From Sclerotinia nivalis (lineage: Eukaryota > Ascomycota > Leotiomycetes > Helotiales > Sclerotiniaceae): DNA of 64,000 nucleotides. Of the stretch, positions 226-49,338 are shown in pieces. Numbering within the stretch: the first letter of the stretch is position 1; the number at the start of each line of letters is the position of its first letter. The translations under genes and the position numbers were made by a program. The stretch lies in assembly GCA_029531795.1 (NCBI GenBank), contig JAPEIS010000012.1, positions 1,054,001-1,118,000 of the forward strand. The letters are read 5' to 3'. The notes beneath the pieces were generated by a model. That model ran no database searches. It saw only the letters and a program-made list of their open reading frames with translations, and had not been told where the DNA came from.

Positions 226-3200
226 TTCTTTGACTGTGGGAGGGATATGTGTTAGTAAGTGTCCAAGAGGTGAGAGTGATCTTGCGCTGAATAGAGTTTT
301 GAAGAAGAAGAGGTGAAATGTTGGGGTGGGGGGTAGATTGTACTTACAGTATTGTCGATGAAGAGGAAGGAAAATTTGGGAGGGGAGTAGGATTGATATA
401 GATTTTCGTATGGTCCGTGCACGAGAGAATTTTTCAAGAAGCTAGTAAGCGAAGAGCAAAATGGAATTTTTTGGAAGGGTTAGTGATTGGACGAAGTTGT
501 TAGTGTGCACGCATGACATGTGAAAGTAGGTAGGAATCGGGAAATGACATCGGGAATCGGGGGTCTAAGACGGGAAAATGGAGAAAACTCGGAGAAGAGC
601 TACTGCACCCATTATGTCACAACTTCCAATTCCTATCATACCTATCTACCGCACATCAGTATATTCTCTATATTCCATCTAACCTTTCATACTATATTCT
701 ATATTTCAAATCCTCTATTTATTTATCTATCACCCAACAAATTAATCAATATTGCATACCACACGCACCACACCTACCACGCCAACTCCCAGCCAACCAA
801 CCAATAAACATTATATTTCAAACCCTATTACTATTCATTAGAACTAGGTATACATCTCGGACATCTAACCTACTCTATAATAAACTCCAACTCCCTCTTC
901 CTTCCCATCCCATCCCTTTTGCCTTCGCATCCCAATCCCCAATCTCAATCCCTCTCCTTTCCCTCTTCCATCCAATCTCCCAATCTCAATTCCCAACCAT
1001 CCATCATCCGTCTACTTATCCAACCATCCATCATCCGTTTACCCATCCACCCATCCATCATCTGTCTATTTATCCATCCATCTATCATCTGTTTATTTAT
1101 CCATCTATCCATCATCCGTTTACCCACCCATCTATCCATTATCCGTTTACCCATCCATTTATCTATCATCCGTCTACCCATCTATCCATCCATCATCCGT
1201 CTACCCATCCATCATCTATCCATCCACTCCATCCACTCCATCCGCTCCATCCATCTACATCTAGAATCCCAATATCCAGTATCCAGTACCCAATATCCAA
1301 AATGGCGACATTATACCTCATACATACCCAAAAAACACACGAAAAAGTGAGCAAATAGAATTTTTGAAAAGACAACCCAAAACACCGCAGAAACCATAGA
1401 GAATACCATCCAATCACCCTCAGAGCGAGTAGATCACCCAGACCCTCAATGGCGGACTCACCGTCGCCATTACAAGAATCCCGCTGGTCATCTTGAGCTG
1501 GGGGGGAGGAACAAAGGGAAATCCACAACTAAGATCAAACAAAGCTCCTATAGAAGTCTCCTATAGAGCCATCCAGAACACGATAAACACTTTGATAAAG
1601 ACGATACAGAACTTATCATCGTCATCTCTGTGAATATCACGGCTTATACGTGCTTGACGTTACGGGTTCTTACTATAAGCACTCAGAGATCTTCCGGGGG
1701 GTTACAGGTTATTTTGTTTATAATAATTTTTTTTATTTTTATATAACTTTATATTGTATATACCAAAAGCAGATCGTATGATCCGTGTAGCCTTAGTTAT
1801 AGTTAGATCAAATCGATTATGAATTTACTACTATTACTACCTCATACATATCACATCAAACATCATGCACGATTCATAGGTTCTAACCCACTCCATTCCA
1901 TTTTTCAGGAGGTAAAAGTAAAAAGGTTCCCTTGGACCTGGTAGATCTCTCCCTACAAATTGGGGTTTTATTTACATATTCTCATACAATCAATTTCCGT
2001 ATAATCAATTTTCATTCACATACATACCTATATAACATAGATATCACAAGTAAAGAAAGTACGAAGATTCAATTGATTTGATTGATTCCATAGTAGCTTA
2101 TCTTATCTTATCCTGTCCCTCCCTACCCAATACTATTCTATGCTATACTATTTCATTCAATCCACCAAATCACTCATCCCCCATCCGAAATCCCAAATCC
2201 AAAAACAAAATCAAAAGGAAATCAACAGAAAAGAAAGCAAAATAACAAAATGATCTAAAGAAAAAAGATAGAAGAAATCCATCCGTTGCACATTCCATAT
2301 CCCACCCCACTCCTCTCCCCACCGCCTACCCACCAAACGCATCATGCCATCATCGTCCATCATCATCACCTGCATCTGCATCCTTCCCTATCTAAATCCC
2401 GCATCCTCCAACCAACAACCAACCAACCAAAGGATCATCATCCCTCAAAACTGCATAAAAGAATCCTCCATCCATAACCAACAAAAAGATGTAAAAAGTA
2501 AGGCTGAAGCTAGTCATCAATTCATAAGATTGCCGTATCATATCGCATGGCCCAATTTCATTCATTTGTATATTTTGTCCGTCGTTTCGTAAATCGTGTG
2601 CAAATTTTCGTAAATACCGCACTAATGTATTCATCCGATCCATCGTCATCCTTCCGTTCCACTTCGTTGTCCGCGCGTTATCGTTACAAGTGTTTGTTCG
2701 TAGATTCGGGTTTGTACTTGTACGTTATCACACTTTAATTCGCGGGGGCATAAGCTTCTTGAACTAGCTTTCTTAATGGCGATGGGAGCGAGCTATTATG
2801 GAGAAATATACCAATCAGTTATGGTTCTCATTTAAAATTGGAAAATATAAAATGTGAACTCGGAATTGTTTTGGGTAAGATCGTTGTAACATTTCTTCAT
2901 CTATCTCCTATAGCGTGAAATGAAGAATAGTAGAAAACGACACAAAAATGAAAATGCAAAAAATGAAAAACAAAAAACAACGTTTGGGTGTTATGTATAA
3001 CAAATGAAACAATATATGAAAATCGTCAAGGCATGGAGAAACTTTGTGATGGTCGTGAACTCATTATATCATCTTTGCGCCGAAGAAAGACCCCAAAGGT
3101 GCACCCTTATTATATAACTCCTCTCTGTAGATCTTTCGCTGTTTCCAAATCTGCGATAGAAATGGTATTTTAGGCGAAGCTGAAACAAAGGCATTGTATT

Positions 3201-21746: not shown

Positions 21747-21935
21747 GATGTTTATTGATTGATGTGTATAATACTGATTGATGTTTTGTATGATCTAAAA
21801 GTAAGGATTTGTTGAATTATACAGCAAAGTTTTGTGAAAAGAAGATGAGGTGAGCCATCCTTTTATAGTTTTGATTTCGCCAGCAGATGTTGTGGAGAAC
21901 GAGAGGAGGCTAGACAGTAAGTACTAGACTAAAGT

Positions 21936-21948
21936 AAAGACTAGAGTC
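21936..21948. repeat. Left target-site duplication of retroposon copy 1
   Basis: The 13-mer AAAGACTAGAGTC is present here and again, identically, at 22809-22821. The two copies abut the first nucleotide of the ribozyme-like 5' end and the AATC-repeat 3' tail respectively, as expected for a non-LTR insertion. Confidence 0.8.
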
Positions 21949-22041
21949 GGAGGACAAGACTCAACACCTGTACGCGGTGTCCTCTACGAACCTCCAGCTC
22001 TTTTATTTAATTATTAGAGTCTGCAGAGCTAAGTTTGAGTC
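21949..22041 (+). ncRNA. HDV-like self-cleaving ribozyme candidate at the 5' end of retroposon copy 1
   Basis: Pairings read directly from the sequence follow. P1 is 21949-21955 with 21979-21985, 7 bp opening with the G-U pair usual at the cleavage site. P2 is 21958-21964 (GACTCAA) with 22035-22041 (TTGAGTC), 7 bp, perfect. P3 is 21966-21968 with 21976-21978. L3 is the 7-nt loop TGTACGC. P1.1 is G21970-C21987 and T21971-A21986. P4 is CTC, CAG and CTCT (21992-22001) with AGAG, CTG and GAG (22016-22028). The J4/2 joiner is CTAAGT from 22029, fitting C-N-R-A with C22029 as the predicted catalytic cytosine. This is the full nested double-pseudoknot order of the HDV class. Cleavage would fall 5' of 21949, exactly at the element boundary. 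No activity has been shown. Confidence 0.75.
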
Positions 22042-22731
22042 ATTTGATGGAGTCGTGGTGATTGGAAGAGGAAGAGGCACCCAATCGCGACGTTTTTTGC
22101 CTCCGAGTTGGCTGATGGCAAAGGCCAGATCTCGGTTTTTTGACAGTCGTATCATCGGATTGTGCTTTCTACAATACTACTTTTATTACGAAACAGAGGA
22201 CAACACTATCATCTACAACAATATACTACAAAATCATCTCCAAGATCCCTCTGGGGCATCGGGCGCGATTTATCAAATTCAGTTTTAAGGTTCAGACCTT
22301 ACCTCCTTCGATTCGAATCAAAACAACAACAATTCATATACTTGGAGGAGCTGCGTGGAACGATCCGAGCTAATGACGTATCTGCCATAGAATTCGGTGG
22401 AGGATATACTACATACAGGATTGGGGCACCTTGTAGAGTCAATATCCCTATGGTTTGGAGGGTTCTATGAAGTCGATATTAGGCAAGGTATGATTGCTGG
22501 GAAGTTACGAACAGGACAAAGAGTTGATGTGAAGGAAGGTTGTTTGGATTTGATTGATAGAGGGATCGGATTTGGAAAATCATGAGTGTAATGCTTTGAT
22601 TGGTATTTTTATCTTTATATGCGATGCCGTATAGAGATCGGGCTTTGCTCCCCAGTATTAGTTTTCACTTCCCTTATCAAAAATATATACAAACCTGTAT
22701 GCTATTTAGATAGCACTACCCATAGCCATCT

Positions 22732-22757
22732 GTTAAGAGCTCGATTGAGCTCTTAAC
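22732..22757 (+). other. Perfect hairpin near the 3' end of retroposon copy 1
   Basis: GTTAAGAGCTC, a GATT loop, then GAGCTCTTAAC form an 11-bp perfect inverted repeat about 50 bp before the AATC tail. Copy 2 has a degenerate counterpart at about 38208-38232. Several LINE and SINE families use a 3' stem-loop followed by a short repeat tail for recognition by reverse transcriptase; that role here is inference. Confidence 0.6.
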
Positions 22758-22808
22758 CGTCCTAGATAGTCTTTGACTCAGTGTGGACGTTAATTAAATC
22801 AATCAATC

Positions 22809-22821
22809 AAAGACTAGAGTC
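22809..22821. repeat. Right target-site duplication of retroposon copy 1
   Basis: AAAGACTAGAGTC, identical to 21936-21948. It begins inside the run of A residues ending the AATC tail, so its exact left edge is uncertain by two or three bases. Confidence 0.75.
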
Positions 22822-23984
22822 TAGTACTTCGCTTAAATACCTCAGCTTCCAGCTATAGGGTTGAATCATCATAAAATTTACAACTAACGCCAAAAGCCGT
22901 AATAGATTAGGATTGATAAAGCTAGATACCATCATCTTTAGCTTTCAATAACCCTCTTTCTCTATTCCTTAGTATCATATCCTTATGCATCTAAATCCGA
23001 ATTCCTTATTTCATGATATTTCAAAGCAAATTACGCTCTTTAAGGCCTTTGAACTGTGACGCATTTGCGATAAAGAACTGAATCAACAAGGTTCAATTGT
23101 ATCCATAGAATCTACAATTAGAGTTCGACAACTTGGAGCCCGAAGGGCTCTTATATACTAGTTATGTGTAATGTGGTCGATCGATGGCAATCGGCAGATG
23201 ATTGATCACACTTGTAACATGAACTGCAGCACCCCATTCCTTATTATTTCATTCAGTTCATACTCTATTCTTCTTATATAACTCTTACTATTAAACTTAC
23301 TATACTCCTTTTATATCTTACCTTTTCCTTCCATCATTTAATATACTTCATCAACCCATGAACACCGAACTTCCAAAAAAAAGAGTATCTACGTCAACTA
23401 AAACGAAAGTTTCTCCCCAATGTGACTTTAAAGAAAAAGCTGAAAAGAGCACTTTGAACACATCGTCATAGTAATGATTACTCATAAGAAAATGTCAGTA
23501 ACAAATCTCCATACGAAAAATAGAACGATCATCACAAACAAACAAAATTATTCCAGAAGAATAAGTGAACTCCATTGTATGATACATAAAAGGTTTGCCG
23601 TCTTCCCACATAAAAGCAAGTAAGCCAAACCATTCCCACGCCATATGTCTCTTTTTCCCCACGCCACCAGAACTTTTGCCCACCGTTAATTTTCTGTCAT
23701 ACAGAAGGTAGGCAAGGAAACATTAATCATGTAAGATGCATTAAATAGAAGTTTTTATCGTTCCCTGTTCCCACCATAAGTATAGCAGATCTTGCAAAAA
23801 TCCCAATTCCCTTCACTCGCTATGCAGTAGACAAACCGGAAAGATCTGTAACATGAACGCCGAATGTGACCTAAGAGGTTATGTAACAATGAGGAGACAG
23901 ATCTTGGATATTTAAATGTCTGGTGTGACACATCTATATATTTGTGCCGGAACCAAACTATCCAGATCTTTGATGGTGTGCATC

Positions 23985-37190: not shown

Positions 37191-37203
37191 TCTAGCTTTG
37201 TGA
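37191..37203. repeat. Left target-site duplication of retroposon copy 2
   Basis: TCTAGCTTTGTGA is present here and again, identically, at 38291-38303. It differs from the duplication flanking copy 1, so the two copies are independent insertions rather than a segmental duplication. Confidence 0.85.
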
Positions 37204-37289
37204 GGAGGGCGAAGACTCAACACCTGTATGTAGTGCCCTTTACGAATCTCCAGCTTTTTATTGAGAGTTTGTAAAGCTAAGATTGAGTT
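37204..37289 (+). ncRNA. HDV-like ribozyme candidate at the 5' end of retroposon copy 2, mutated
   Basis: The same fold as in copy 1 can be drawn. P1 is 37204-37210 with 37235-37241 (two G-U pairs). P1.1 is G37226-C37243 and T37227-A37242. P2 is 37214-37220 (GACTCAA) with 37283-37289 (TTGAGTT, one G-U). P4 is 37248-37257 with 37264-37276, and the joiner is CTAAGA from C37277. Compared with copy 1, the third inner pair of P1 changes on both sides (A-T to G-C). P3 has lost one pair (C against A), and P4 has one mismatch. Core nucleotides are kept. Activity is probably weaker than that of copy 1. Confidence 0.6.
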
Positions 37290-38290
37290 ATTTGATAGAA
37301 TCGAATATATTGGAAGAGAGAGAAAGGGTTTCCCGATTACGATATTCACGATGGAGGGGTTATTACGATTTTACAGTATCAATATCTTCGAAAAGATGAA
37401 CGAACATCAATCCAAAATACAGACGATGGCTATAGAAGTCCTGATTAGATTCAACATTTACTATTGATTATTACTTCAATACAAAGTATAATATATTTAA
37501 TAAGTCCCTTCTATTTTAGAAAAATCTTTTCGATATAGAATTTACTATTGTTTTATTCGCATTTTATACCTTTTTTCAACAATCGATTATCGAAAACACA
37601 TTCATTTTAACACTACGATTATCACGAAACAAAGAATACTATCATCTATCAACTAATGCTATACTCTGGGCATCGATACGATATTACGCCTTTTCCTCGA
37701 TTTTACGAAAATATTTTTTATACATATATAAATAGGGTTAGGGCCACGCCCCACTATCATTACATTCAAACAATTGATATTCCATTCGGCAGTTTCGATT
37801 ATTTATATTCAAACAAAGCTGGAGATCATCACACTTAGGAAGGTATGCAAAGAAACTAATGAATAAATTCGAATTGAAGAGAATGGTATCTCCCAATTGT
37901 TTTTCACTAGTATGAGGATCTTTTTGCTATACTGAAGGTAATCTTGATGAAGATGACTCTTGACCTTTGTGGGAAGTGGATATCGGAATAGCAGGTTGGG
38001 TTGAAGAAGAAGATTATATCAATAGGATACTTTAATTAGCAAGGGGTAGAAGAAGAACGAGGAAGGAAAGATCTTAGAAAATGAAGATATCGGGCTTTGT
38101 TCCCCAATATTAGTTTTCACTTGCCCTCAATCAACATTTCAAAAGTTGAAAAGAAACCTAAACTATACAAACTATATACTAGCTAGCATACAACTCCCCA
38201 TAGCATCAACTAGAAGCTCATAGAGCCCCTAGCCGTCCTAGATAGTCTTAGACTCAGTGTGGACGTTAAATCAATCAATCAATCAATCAA
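37204..38290 (+). mobile_element. Retroposon copy 2, non-autonomous non-LTR type with a 5' HDV-like ribozyme
   Basis: A 1087-bp element between 13-bp direct repeats. It begins GGAGGGCGAAGACTCAACAC and ends in a tail of about six AATC units. It shares with copy 1 the 5' 90 bp, an internal block (CGAAACAAAG, then ACTATCATCTA), the block ATCGGGCTTTGTTCCCC and the block CCGTCCTAGATAGTCTT followed by GACTCAGTGTGGACGTTAA. Differences in the shared blocks are overwhelmingly C/T and G/A transitions, with copy 2 usually carrying T or A, as expected from repeat-induced point mutation. No coding domain is recognisable. It is about 230 bp longer than copy 1, mainly in the region 37350-37600. Confidence 0.75.
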
Positions 38291-38303
38291 TCTAGCTTTG
38301 TGA
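38291..38303. repeat. Right target-site duplication of retroposon copy 2
   Basis: TCTAGCTTTGTGA directly follows the AATC tail and is identical to 37191-37203. Confidence 0.85.
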
Positions 38304-47714: not shown

Positions 47715-49338
47715 CTTGCTCTAAGGTTATGAGACTTTTCTGAGATAACTTTATAAGAAAAGATATTTTGTGATGTTGATTTGCTTGTTTTGGAGGGGAA
47801 ATTATAGAGGGGTTTCTACAGGCGATTTTGATACCAGACACTTGAGTGGGCACACAGCAAATCATTGGGCCGTTATGCGCCTTACCTAATATAGCTTAGC
47901 CTTTTCGCCAAATTAAGCTCGAAAAGTTTATCCTTCCATTTAAAAATCATTCGGTTGTTCAAGATGATTTTTTTTTCAACTTGTTTTTCCACCTGCATAC
48001 TACTAGGTATTCTTCTTCAATTCAAACAAAATCTTTTGTCAACAACTACTCGAGCATTGCTCTTGCTATCGTGGTTTCAAAATGTAGTTGTTTGCTTTAC
48101 TAGTTCTATTTCTATGTATTTCTTTCTATTTACTCATGATCGCCGCCTCCAGAACTTGAGCTCAATGGTATGTTTAATCTTCAGTCTTCCTTTGCTTTAC
48201 AGCACCCCGCACATTCCATAGCATTTTTTGTATGATGACAAAACCTTCCATTAAGAACGGCCTTCTGAATAACCATGTCGATTCAATCAATATATCAAGC
48301 TCAACAGTCTGACTCTATTATCAAATTCTTTATTTTTATTGTTGTGGAAATCTTCAAAAAGACTTAGCTAACAATCTTCGAGTCTCTGTAGGAATTCAAT
48401 ATCAAAACAAGTATGATTGCCACACATAGCAGCACATTTGACACATGACATGAAAACATGGTTTGGTCGAGGCTGGCAGACAATATAGATAGCCAATTCA
48501 TTTTGGATATTGAATCGATGGGGTCATATAATCTTCGGACATTTTCGATGCTGTACATAGGTAGCAAATTTATCTCAAGTTTTATCTGAATGAACCTCGG
48601 GAGACCCTCCATCATAATGTTTCACGGGGTTGAAATGTATGAGTGATTGATTCACTATGACAGACCATCAGCCAGATCACCTTTTGAAAAATGATTTCCC
48701 GCTTGAAGACTTTTCAAATATGATTTAGCGGTGTGATTGATTCTTTCATTCATGTTCCAACACATCAATACTCTTTCGTGATGACAACTTGTGACTTTTG
48801 GTTTTGCATGGTATTGTTGGTAGTTCATATTTACGCCCCTCTTCGTTCTTCGATAAGAAGTACTCTTGACTCTTGACTTGTGCAGTTGTTCGTTAGCCTA
48901 GCGAAACTTATCAACCTATTAAGGAATTCATCCATTCATTGTTGAACTAGAACCTCTTGCGTAGTACAGAGCATGAAATCAATCTACTCTACTCTACTCT
49001 GCTCAAACAACAATTTGCAACTCGAGAAAACTCAAGTACTTTCTTTCTAGTCGGTAAAGTAGACTTCTAAAGAGTCGAAGACGATTCATCTACTTAGGTA
49101 CTATATTTACTTGTACTACCATTCAACATCCAAACGCGCACGCAAGGCTTCTAGCAACGAGATCCGCCACGCTAAGAAGCATCCAACAACTTCCGCACTT
49201 CAGCCTCTTTACAATCGGAGCTTCCAAAAGCTCGGCTTCTTCAACTTTCAACCATTCCCCACGTTCAACAACAAATAACAATACTTTTACACATCAGGCT
49301 GTGCAGCTTTGCCTGCTACAGTACATCGGTGAGGGAAA
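47715..49338. other. Divergent intergenic region of NTF2 and the DUF7918 gene
   Basis: About 1.6 kb, A-T-rich, with pyrimidine tracts close to 49339 typical of fungal 5' leaders. Small ORFs at 47955-48221 and 48364-48615 look random. Confidence 0.5.

Follow-up and report, generated by a model that had tools for sequence, protein, structure and literature searches.

What fixes the 5' end of a short, dispersed retroposon that has no gene of its own? The question is raised by the 64,000-nucleotide stretch of Sclerotinia nivalis DNA analysed here (the window), in which such an element starts, immediately after its target-site duplication, with a sequence that the initial annotation had read as a complete HDV-like ribozyme setting the 5' boundary of the insertion. 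Short of biochemistry, that interpretation is well supported: the position of the boundary, the conservation of the element's head and the sharing of this head, with a compensatory change in P1, by a second subfamily all argue that an HDV-like ribozyme, so called by its fold, sets the 5' end. The insertion under study, copy 1, is delimited as follows.

21936..21948, plus strand: 5' target-site duplication AAAGACTAGAGTC, with its second copy at 22809-22821
21949..22808, plus strand: retroposon copy 1 (subfamily 1), 860 bp, longest ATG-started open reading frame 57 aa
22809..22821, plus strand: 3' target-site duplication AAAGACTAGAGTC, matching 21936..21948

The first base after the 5' duplication of copy 1 is nucleotide 1 of P1, and the same start is seen in the rest of the family. 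When 961 bases around copy 1 were used as the query of a similarity search, 36 of the best 40 matches (out of 280 candidates, copy 1 included) started exactly at 21949; the other four were copy 1, the flank of which was part of the query, and three elements starting 1, 3 and 7 bases earlier. Copy 1 aside, these 40 best-listed elements are 92-98% identical to it over their length. Counting patterns with up to 3 mismatches gave 187 heads and 455 tails in the genome, the tail pattern being one that can match LINE tails as well, and the reversed-pattern controls for both counts gave none. Target-site duplications of 11-16 bp were found in all of 30 copies (L009-L038, taken from this search), and the duplication directly adjoins nucleotide 1 of P1 in 28 of them, with one extra base in between in the remaining two. 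The check that the initial annotation had proposed, namely whether other genomic copies begin at this motif too, was thus passed by 28 of the 30. Such a junction is the pattern to be expected if the RNA were cut 5' of P1 and subsequently copied over its full length. The longest ATG-started plus-strand frame in the 30 copies is 76 aa, that is, the element contains no protein-coding gene. We also note that copy 1 sits between inverted-repeat-like flanks, at 21919-21930 and 22818-22829 (AAGTACTAGACT ... AGTCTAGTACTT), its insertion having apparently separated the two arms.

The head itself was inspected helix by helix, and its parts are these.

21949..22041, plus strand: putative HDV-like ribozyme head of copy 1, cleavage predicted between 21948 and 21949
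21949..21955, plus strand: P1 5' strand GGAGGAC, partner GTCCTCT at 21979-21985
21958..21964, plus strand: P2 5' strand GACTCAA, partner TTGAGTC at 22035-22041
21965..21965, plus strand: unpaired extra C separating P2 from P3, seen in the pair-by-pair check
21966..21978, plus strand: P3 (ACC/GGT) with the 7-nt L3 TGTACGC, of which positions 2-3 form P1.1 with 21986-21987
21992..22028, plus strand: P4 hairpin of 10 bp, all ten pairs present in the minimum-free-energy fold of the whole motif
22029..22034, plus strand: J4/2 CTAAGT, in which C22029 is the predicted catalytic C

All pairings listed in the initial annotation were recovered, those of P1, P1.1, P2 and P3 pair by pair, and the helices run in the correct order for the nested double pseudoknot of P1, P1.1, P2, P3 and P4. 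P1 comprises 7 bp and contains the terminal G-U pair, P2 is a perfect 7-bp helix, and P3 (3 bp) and L3 (7 nt) are as had been claimed. P1.1 is formed in the usual register, by nucleotides 2 and 3 of L3 (GT, 21970-21971) with AC at 21986-21987. The 10-bp P4 also stands, with the addition that two bulges, of 1 nt and 2 nt, interrupt its 3' strand; folded in isolation, P4 retains its inner 7 bp while the outermost pairs shift. J4/2 does open with CTAA, in agreement with C-N-R-A, at 22029, and by analogy with HDV its first nucleotide is predicted to play the catalytic role.

How readily could such a layout arise by chance? A descriptor comprising P1, P1.1, P2, P3, a P4 stem and CNRA was run over both strands of the window. 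In its first form, requiring at least 4 unbroken P4 pairs, it found no match in the window; it was then relaxed to at least 3 P4 pairs, with the other terms tightened, and was in this way shaped on the motif after the motif had been seen. Because of this adjustment the descriptor is a measure of how rare the layout is and not an independent discovery. The final form matched a single site in 2 x 64 kb, at 21949, and gave no match in 71 dinucleotide-preserving shuffles of the window, both strands of each being searched. Bearing in mind that the descriptor is motif-shaped, these counts agree with the original contention that a full pseudoknot is unlikely to appear by chance. The descriptor was also run over the 131 loci that were fetched (592,720 bases, with both strands counted and overlapping loci included), where it matched 34 of 38 subfamily-1 loci, 29 of 39 subfamily-2 loci and four loci, representing two places, of a separate HDV-like family, and nothing else.

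Folding energy and covariance models were less favourable. The energy of the whole motif is unremarkable against shuffles (z = -1.11), as computed by programs that omit pseudoknots. In the likewise pseudoknot-free minimum-energy fold of copy 1, part of the P2 3' strand pairs with the stretch preceding P4, and in that of subfamily 2 a competing GGAGG/CCUCC helix replaces P1, the whole-motif energies again lying near those of shuffles. A covariance-model hit above noise, which had been suggested as a further check, was not obtained with Rfam: the scan of the window at the gathering threshold contained no HDV match, and neither did the ribozyme site when 21900-22100 was searched with E up to 10. 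The source cited as PMC5640933 is presumably the paper of Li and Breaker (2017). The failure in Rfam weighs lightly, because HDV variants published from fungi likewise deviate from older search criteria, one deviation being the extra nucleotide between P2 and P3 that the present motif has too (PMC5640933), and it is the outcome of a database test that lies outside the definition of the HDV-like class. Over the whole genome, the Rfam model RF00094 pointed to three other places, all below threshold.

The unexceptional energies, the post hoc tuning of the descriptor and the lack of an Rfam match at the site are what one would cite in favour of a fold that merely happens to stand at a repeat boundary. 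We regard this as very improbable, given that the 71 shuffles yielded no descriptor match and that the only other matches in the 131 loci fell in the separate family, which also holds the top rank of RF00094 in this genome; the latter agreement is modest support, as the scores of 26-32 bits compare with a threshold of 50 and sub-threshold matches occur in 4 of 14 control genomes too. The separate family is of interest in its own right. Its members lie at L039:1503-1570 (plus strand) and at 1501-1572 (minus strand) of both L040 and L041, corresponding to C9:1449319, C1:4730503 and C6:912329 in the genome; they have a CC/GG P1.1 and GCTAAG, and score 32, 30 and 26 bits with RF00094, below the threshold of 50. 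When RF00094 was run on these three loci only, with E up to 0.5, it listed two of the three. About 50 nt upstream of these ribozymes are also similar and the similarity is lost a few bases past the ribozyme, so that they are not obviously heads of retroposons.

The window contains a second copy of the same head, attached to a different body.

37191..37203, plus strand: 5' target-site duplication TCTAGCTTTGTGA of copy 2, 13 bp, with its second copy at 38291-38303
37204..38290, plus strand: retroposon copy 2 (subfamily 2), 1087 bp, with the same head and 3' region and an unrelated body
37204..37289, plus strand: ribozyme head of copy 2, with a C-A mismatch in P3

Here, too, the 13-bp duplication directly precedes P1. 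BLASTN aligns the two copies over nucleotides 1-122 with 76% identity and over their 3' regions with 74% identity in 205 columns, and finds no match between their bodies. Subfamily-2 heads occur at no fewer than 39 further places (in a list of 40 that includes copy 2), amounting to 17 distinct sequences when copy 2 is counted. Since the MAFFT alignment of both subfamilies misplaces the J1/2 gap at column 1, the helices were compared by segments. Subfamily 1 has A-U at pair 6 of P1 where subfamily 2 has G-C, a compensatory change; the P4 stem is kept in subfamily 2 with a shorter loop, and the extra C between P2 and P3 is found there as well. Because this single P1 pair is the only covariation between the subfamilies and most helix positions are invariant, structural support from within the repeat is thin. 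A model derived solely from subfamily 2 found the subfamily-1 heads at 79-85 bits, and did not find the separate HDV-like family.

The pairing of heads with tails was assessed on lists of exact matches, for the 94 listed heads on C1-C11 (6 of the 100 listed heads, those on contig C12, fall outside this pairing). A 'T' tail followed at 803-811 bases in 30 of them and an 'A' tail at 1022-1029 bases in 44, giving a matching tail at a set distance for 74 of the 94; the other 20 had no listed tail, and 25 of the 99 listed tails had no listed head. With these set distances and the unrelated bodies, heads and tails behave like fixed modules placed around different bodies. One further arrangement was noticed at L106 and L107 (C4:625520-625679 and C4:624428-624587, minus strand), where two subfamily-2 copies stand head to tail, each preceded by the same GTATATTTTTGT, which looks like the result of one copy's insertion at the neighbour's duplication or of recombination through it.

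The head is held much more tightly than the body. Divergence was compared in the same 30 copies, which are among the best-scoring; an exact match to the initial 14 nt served to orient them, and all were retained. Divergence from the majority consensus was 7/2790 bases (0.25%) in the 93-nt head and 498/22740 (2.2%) in the rest, with a Fisher p of 3e-17 that ignores shared ancestry. Variants present in at least 2 copies affect 1 of 93 positions in the head, 77 of 583 in the body and 15 of 175 in the 3' part, and singletons number 4, 68 and 15, respectively; columns 801-850, directly ahead of the tail, diverge by 0.27%. Low divergence and few shared variants at the ends, compared with the body, indicate that both ends of the element are held while its middle drifts. 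Of the 505 changes, 441 are C>T or G>A, the direction of RIP, and the 7 head changes are without exception of this type; recurrent RIP could therefore produce some of the apparent sharing of variants.

Another reading is that the head was once a ribozyme and has lost its cutting activity in most copies, the repeat having spread earlier and being inert now. Several copies do carry pair-breaking changes, 4 of the 38 subfamily-1 loci and 10 of the 39 subfamily-2 loci fail the descriptor, and P3 is broken in window copy 2, whose head, judged by its C-A mismatch, is probably inactive. However, one identical 93-nt head is found in 32 of the 38 subfamily-1 loci (the 38 representing 32 distinct places), as against a whole-length identity of 92-98% among the best-listed 40, and we therefore consider wholesale decay quite unlikely.

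Conservation of the head alone cannot separate a function in DNA from one in RNA, and the head might instead be conserved as the DNA of an internal promoter, with the ribozyme fold secondary or unused; the portion of PMC4035085 on which we draw describes the trypanosomatid Pr77 head as promoter and HDV-like ribozyme at once. A promoter, however, predicts neither a nested pseudoknot with its first pair at the integration boundary, nor a compensatory change in P1, nor a P4 stem kept despite the difference in its loop. Further, a B-box match was present in none of the 30 copies and an A-box match in three. On these grounds a purely promoter-like head appears unlikely, and we retain the ribozyme as the preferred explanation of the conserved head. 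A SINE of the Pol III type, with a head derived from tRNA, 7SL or 5S RNA, is disfavoured for the same lack of a B-box, for the absence of a tRNA and for its T runs: ARAGORN (bacterial code) found no tRNA in the window, neither window copy matched simple A- or B-box patterns, Rfam run on the window at its gathering threshold listed neither 7SL nor 5S, and a run of 6 or more T occurs in 30 of 30 copies.

The other end of the element leads to a LINE.

22649..22673, plus strand: 25-nt block common to the LINE 3' region (92%, BLASTN)
22728..22808, plus strand: 3' tail common to the LINE, ending in (AATC)n (83% over 83 nt)

The BLASTN match of the tail extends 2 nt into the 3' duplication. The LINE at locus L075 is flanked by a 14-bp duplication. 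Of its two frames, ORF1 spans 501 codons and gave no Pfam match, and ORF2, an open frame of 1319 codons, contains domains for endonuclease, reverse transcriptase and RNase H. The similarity to the short element lies at the 3' end of L075 (83% over 83 nt with copy 1, 92% over 65 nt with copy 2), which terminates in the same AATC repeat, and all eight further LINE 3' loci match this end and have AATC repeats. In lacking a gene, bearing target-site duplications and sharing its 3' tail with a LINE, the short element has the features by which a LINE-dependent, SINE-like element is recognized, and a LINE of the L075 kind is its likely helper.

Does the LINE carry the ribozyme as well? Of 8 fetched 5' loci, 5 have a readable LINE 5' end, as does L075, and these ends share (C)ACAACAAATTTCG; no LINE 5' end was seen in the remaining 3. 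The descriptor found no match on these readable ends. We also compared the positions of 100 listed heads with those of 45 listed reverse transcriptase matches, all 645 bases or longer and 34 located on C1-C12 (a narrower comparison covered 94 heads and 37 matches chosen by length, 6 of which were on contigs without those heads). Only one listed head lay within 8 kb of a listed match on the same strand. It precedes the reverse transcriptase of L075 by 7,995 bases and belongs to a separate, complete short copy outside the LINE, with its own tail 803 bases on. A LINE that itself carries the ribozyme was accordingly rejected, given that its examined 5' ends have no descriptor match and the only nearby head among those listed is that of another copy; likewise, an R2-type SIDE, the head of which comes from the 5' end of the partner LINE, does not describe the present element, judged by the 5' ends examined. 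By sequence comparison, the short element is LINE-like in its tail and not in its head. Apart from this LINE, eight reverse transcriptase matches share an identical score of 91.7 bits (C9:2637091, C16:866943, C19:59264, C20:49807, C21:60373, C22:41201, C26:14127 and C26:41171); seven of them lie in 1265-aa frames, and the group may represent a LINE family that is very recent, site-specific or subtelomeric.

In all likelihood, then, the element is a gene-less, SINE-like retroposon of ~860 or 1090 bp that depends on a LINE and is composed of a self-cleaving head, a variable body and a LINE-like tail. We hypothesize that it would be transcribed as part of a longer RNA from a promoter outside it, and that the head would fold during transcription and cut 5' of P1 nucleotide 1, leaving an RNA that starts at the element boundary. 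The reverse transcriptase of an L075-kind LINE may then recognize the tail with its (AAUC)n and carry out target-primed reverse transcription. As the whole ribozyme would stay on the RNA, daughter copies would carry the head at their very edge and could again be released from transcripts crossing them. Such an element would be well served by a ribozyme head, since cleavage does not depend on an internal promoter and leaves the head on every daughter RNA. Much more tentatively, and with about as much doubt as confidence, we suggest that short retroposons of this fungal lineage use the self-cleaving ribozyme as a stand-alone head module, replacing the Pol III promoter of classical SINEs. Since the same pair is joined around unrelated bodies, head and LINE-like tail would form a minimal kit for mobilizing whatever RNA is captured between them, and many of the dispersed fungal HDV variants may be such heads.

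HDV-like ribozymes have already been described from fungi, and flies and trypanosomatids have them on short retroposons. The part of PMC3414825 used here describes the Drosophila R2 SIDEs and R2/R1 hybrid SIDEs as non-autonomous elements that start with the HDV-like R2 ribozyme and have the 3' end of a LINE; in the R2/R1 hybrids the R2 ribozyme is joined to the tail of another LINE, with 14-bp duplications. According to the same part, these SIDEs occupy rDNA sites, are called rare and take their head from the R2 LINE, whereas the Sclerotinia element is fungal and dispersed, has 187 head matches and a body of its own, and shares its tail with a LINE that, where examined, has no such head. In trypanosomatids, NARTc, RIME and SIDER elements carry the Pr77 ribozyme, and this 5' module is also present on LINEs, L1Tc among them, as stated in the portion of PMC4035085 drawn on above, in contrast to the Sclerotinia LINE 5' ends examined.

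For the comparison with fungal ribozymes, we take AGTA (AGUA) to be the loop-E consensus. The section of PMC5640933 relevant here reports HDV variants in 26 fungal species, two constructs of which were shown to cleave, at the base of P1, and ascribes to them 'widely variable gene associations'. An extra nucleotide, most commonly C, lies between P2 and P3 of these variants, a likeness to C21965 of the present motif. Differences exist as well: the variants typically (not universally) have C-G at the cleavage site and typically an E loop in P4 (same section of PMC5640933), where the Sclerotinia motif has G-U at the site and no AGTA/AGUA in the P4 region. No word beginning with 'transpos' or 'repeat' occurs in the main text of PMC5640933. 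Among fungal short elements, the SINEs of Aspergillus fumigatus, in the part of PMC5063351 cited here, are short, have target-site duplications and are related to tRNA or 5S rRNA; they share shortness and duplications with the Sclerotinia element, the head of which is instead ribozyme-like, in a window without a tRNA. Among the titles and abstract starts that searches of openly licensed PMC papers listed, an HDV-like ribozyme on a fungal retroposon was not found.

Should the proposed cycle be correct, fungal HDV-like ribozymes would gain a concrete biological job, and ribozyme-processed retroposons would extend from flies and trypanosomatids to fungi, here with a tail-sharing LINE that is without the ribozyme where examined. 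Moreover, two elements with one head and one kind of tail around different bodies constitute a natural test of which RNA parts a LINE enzyme needs for copying an RNA that is foreign to it.

Other features of the window were recorded alongside. Rfam identified a fungal U3 snoRNA at 1-241 on the minus strand (118.9 bits), cut by the window edge, and the C/D snoRNA snR61 at 48227-48315 on the plus strand (45.9 bits), barely above threshold; a tandem array with a 27-bp period lies at 966-1235.
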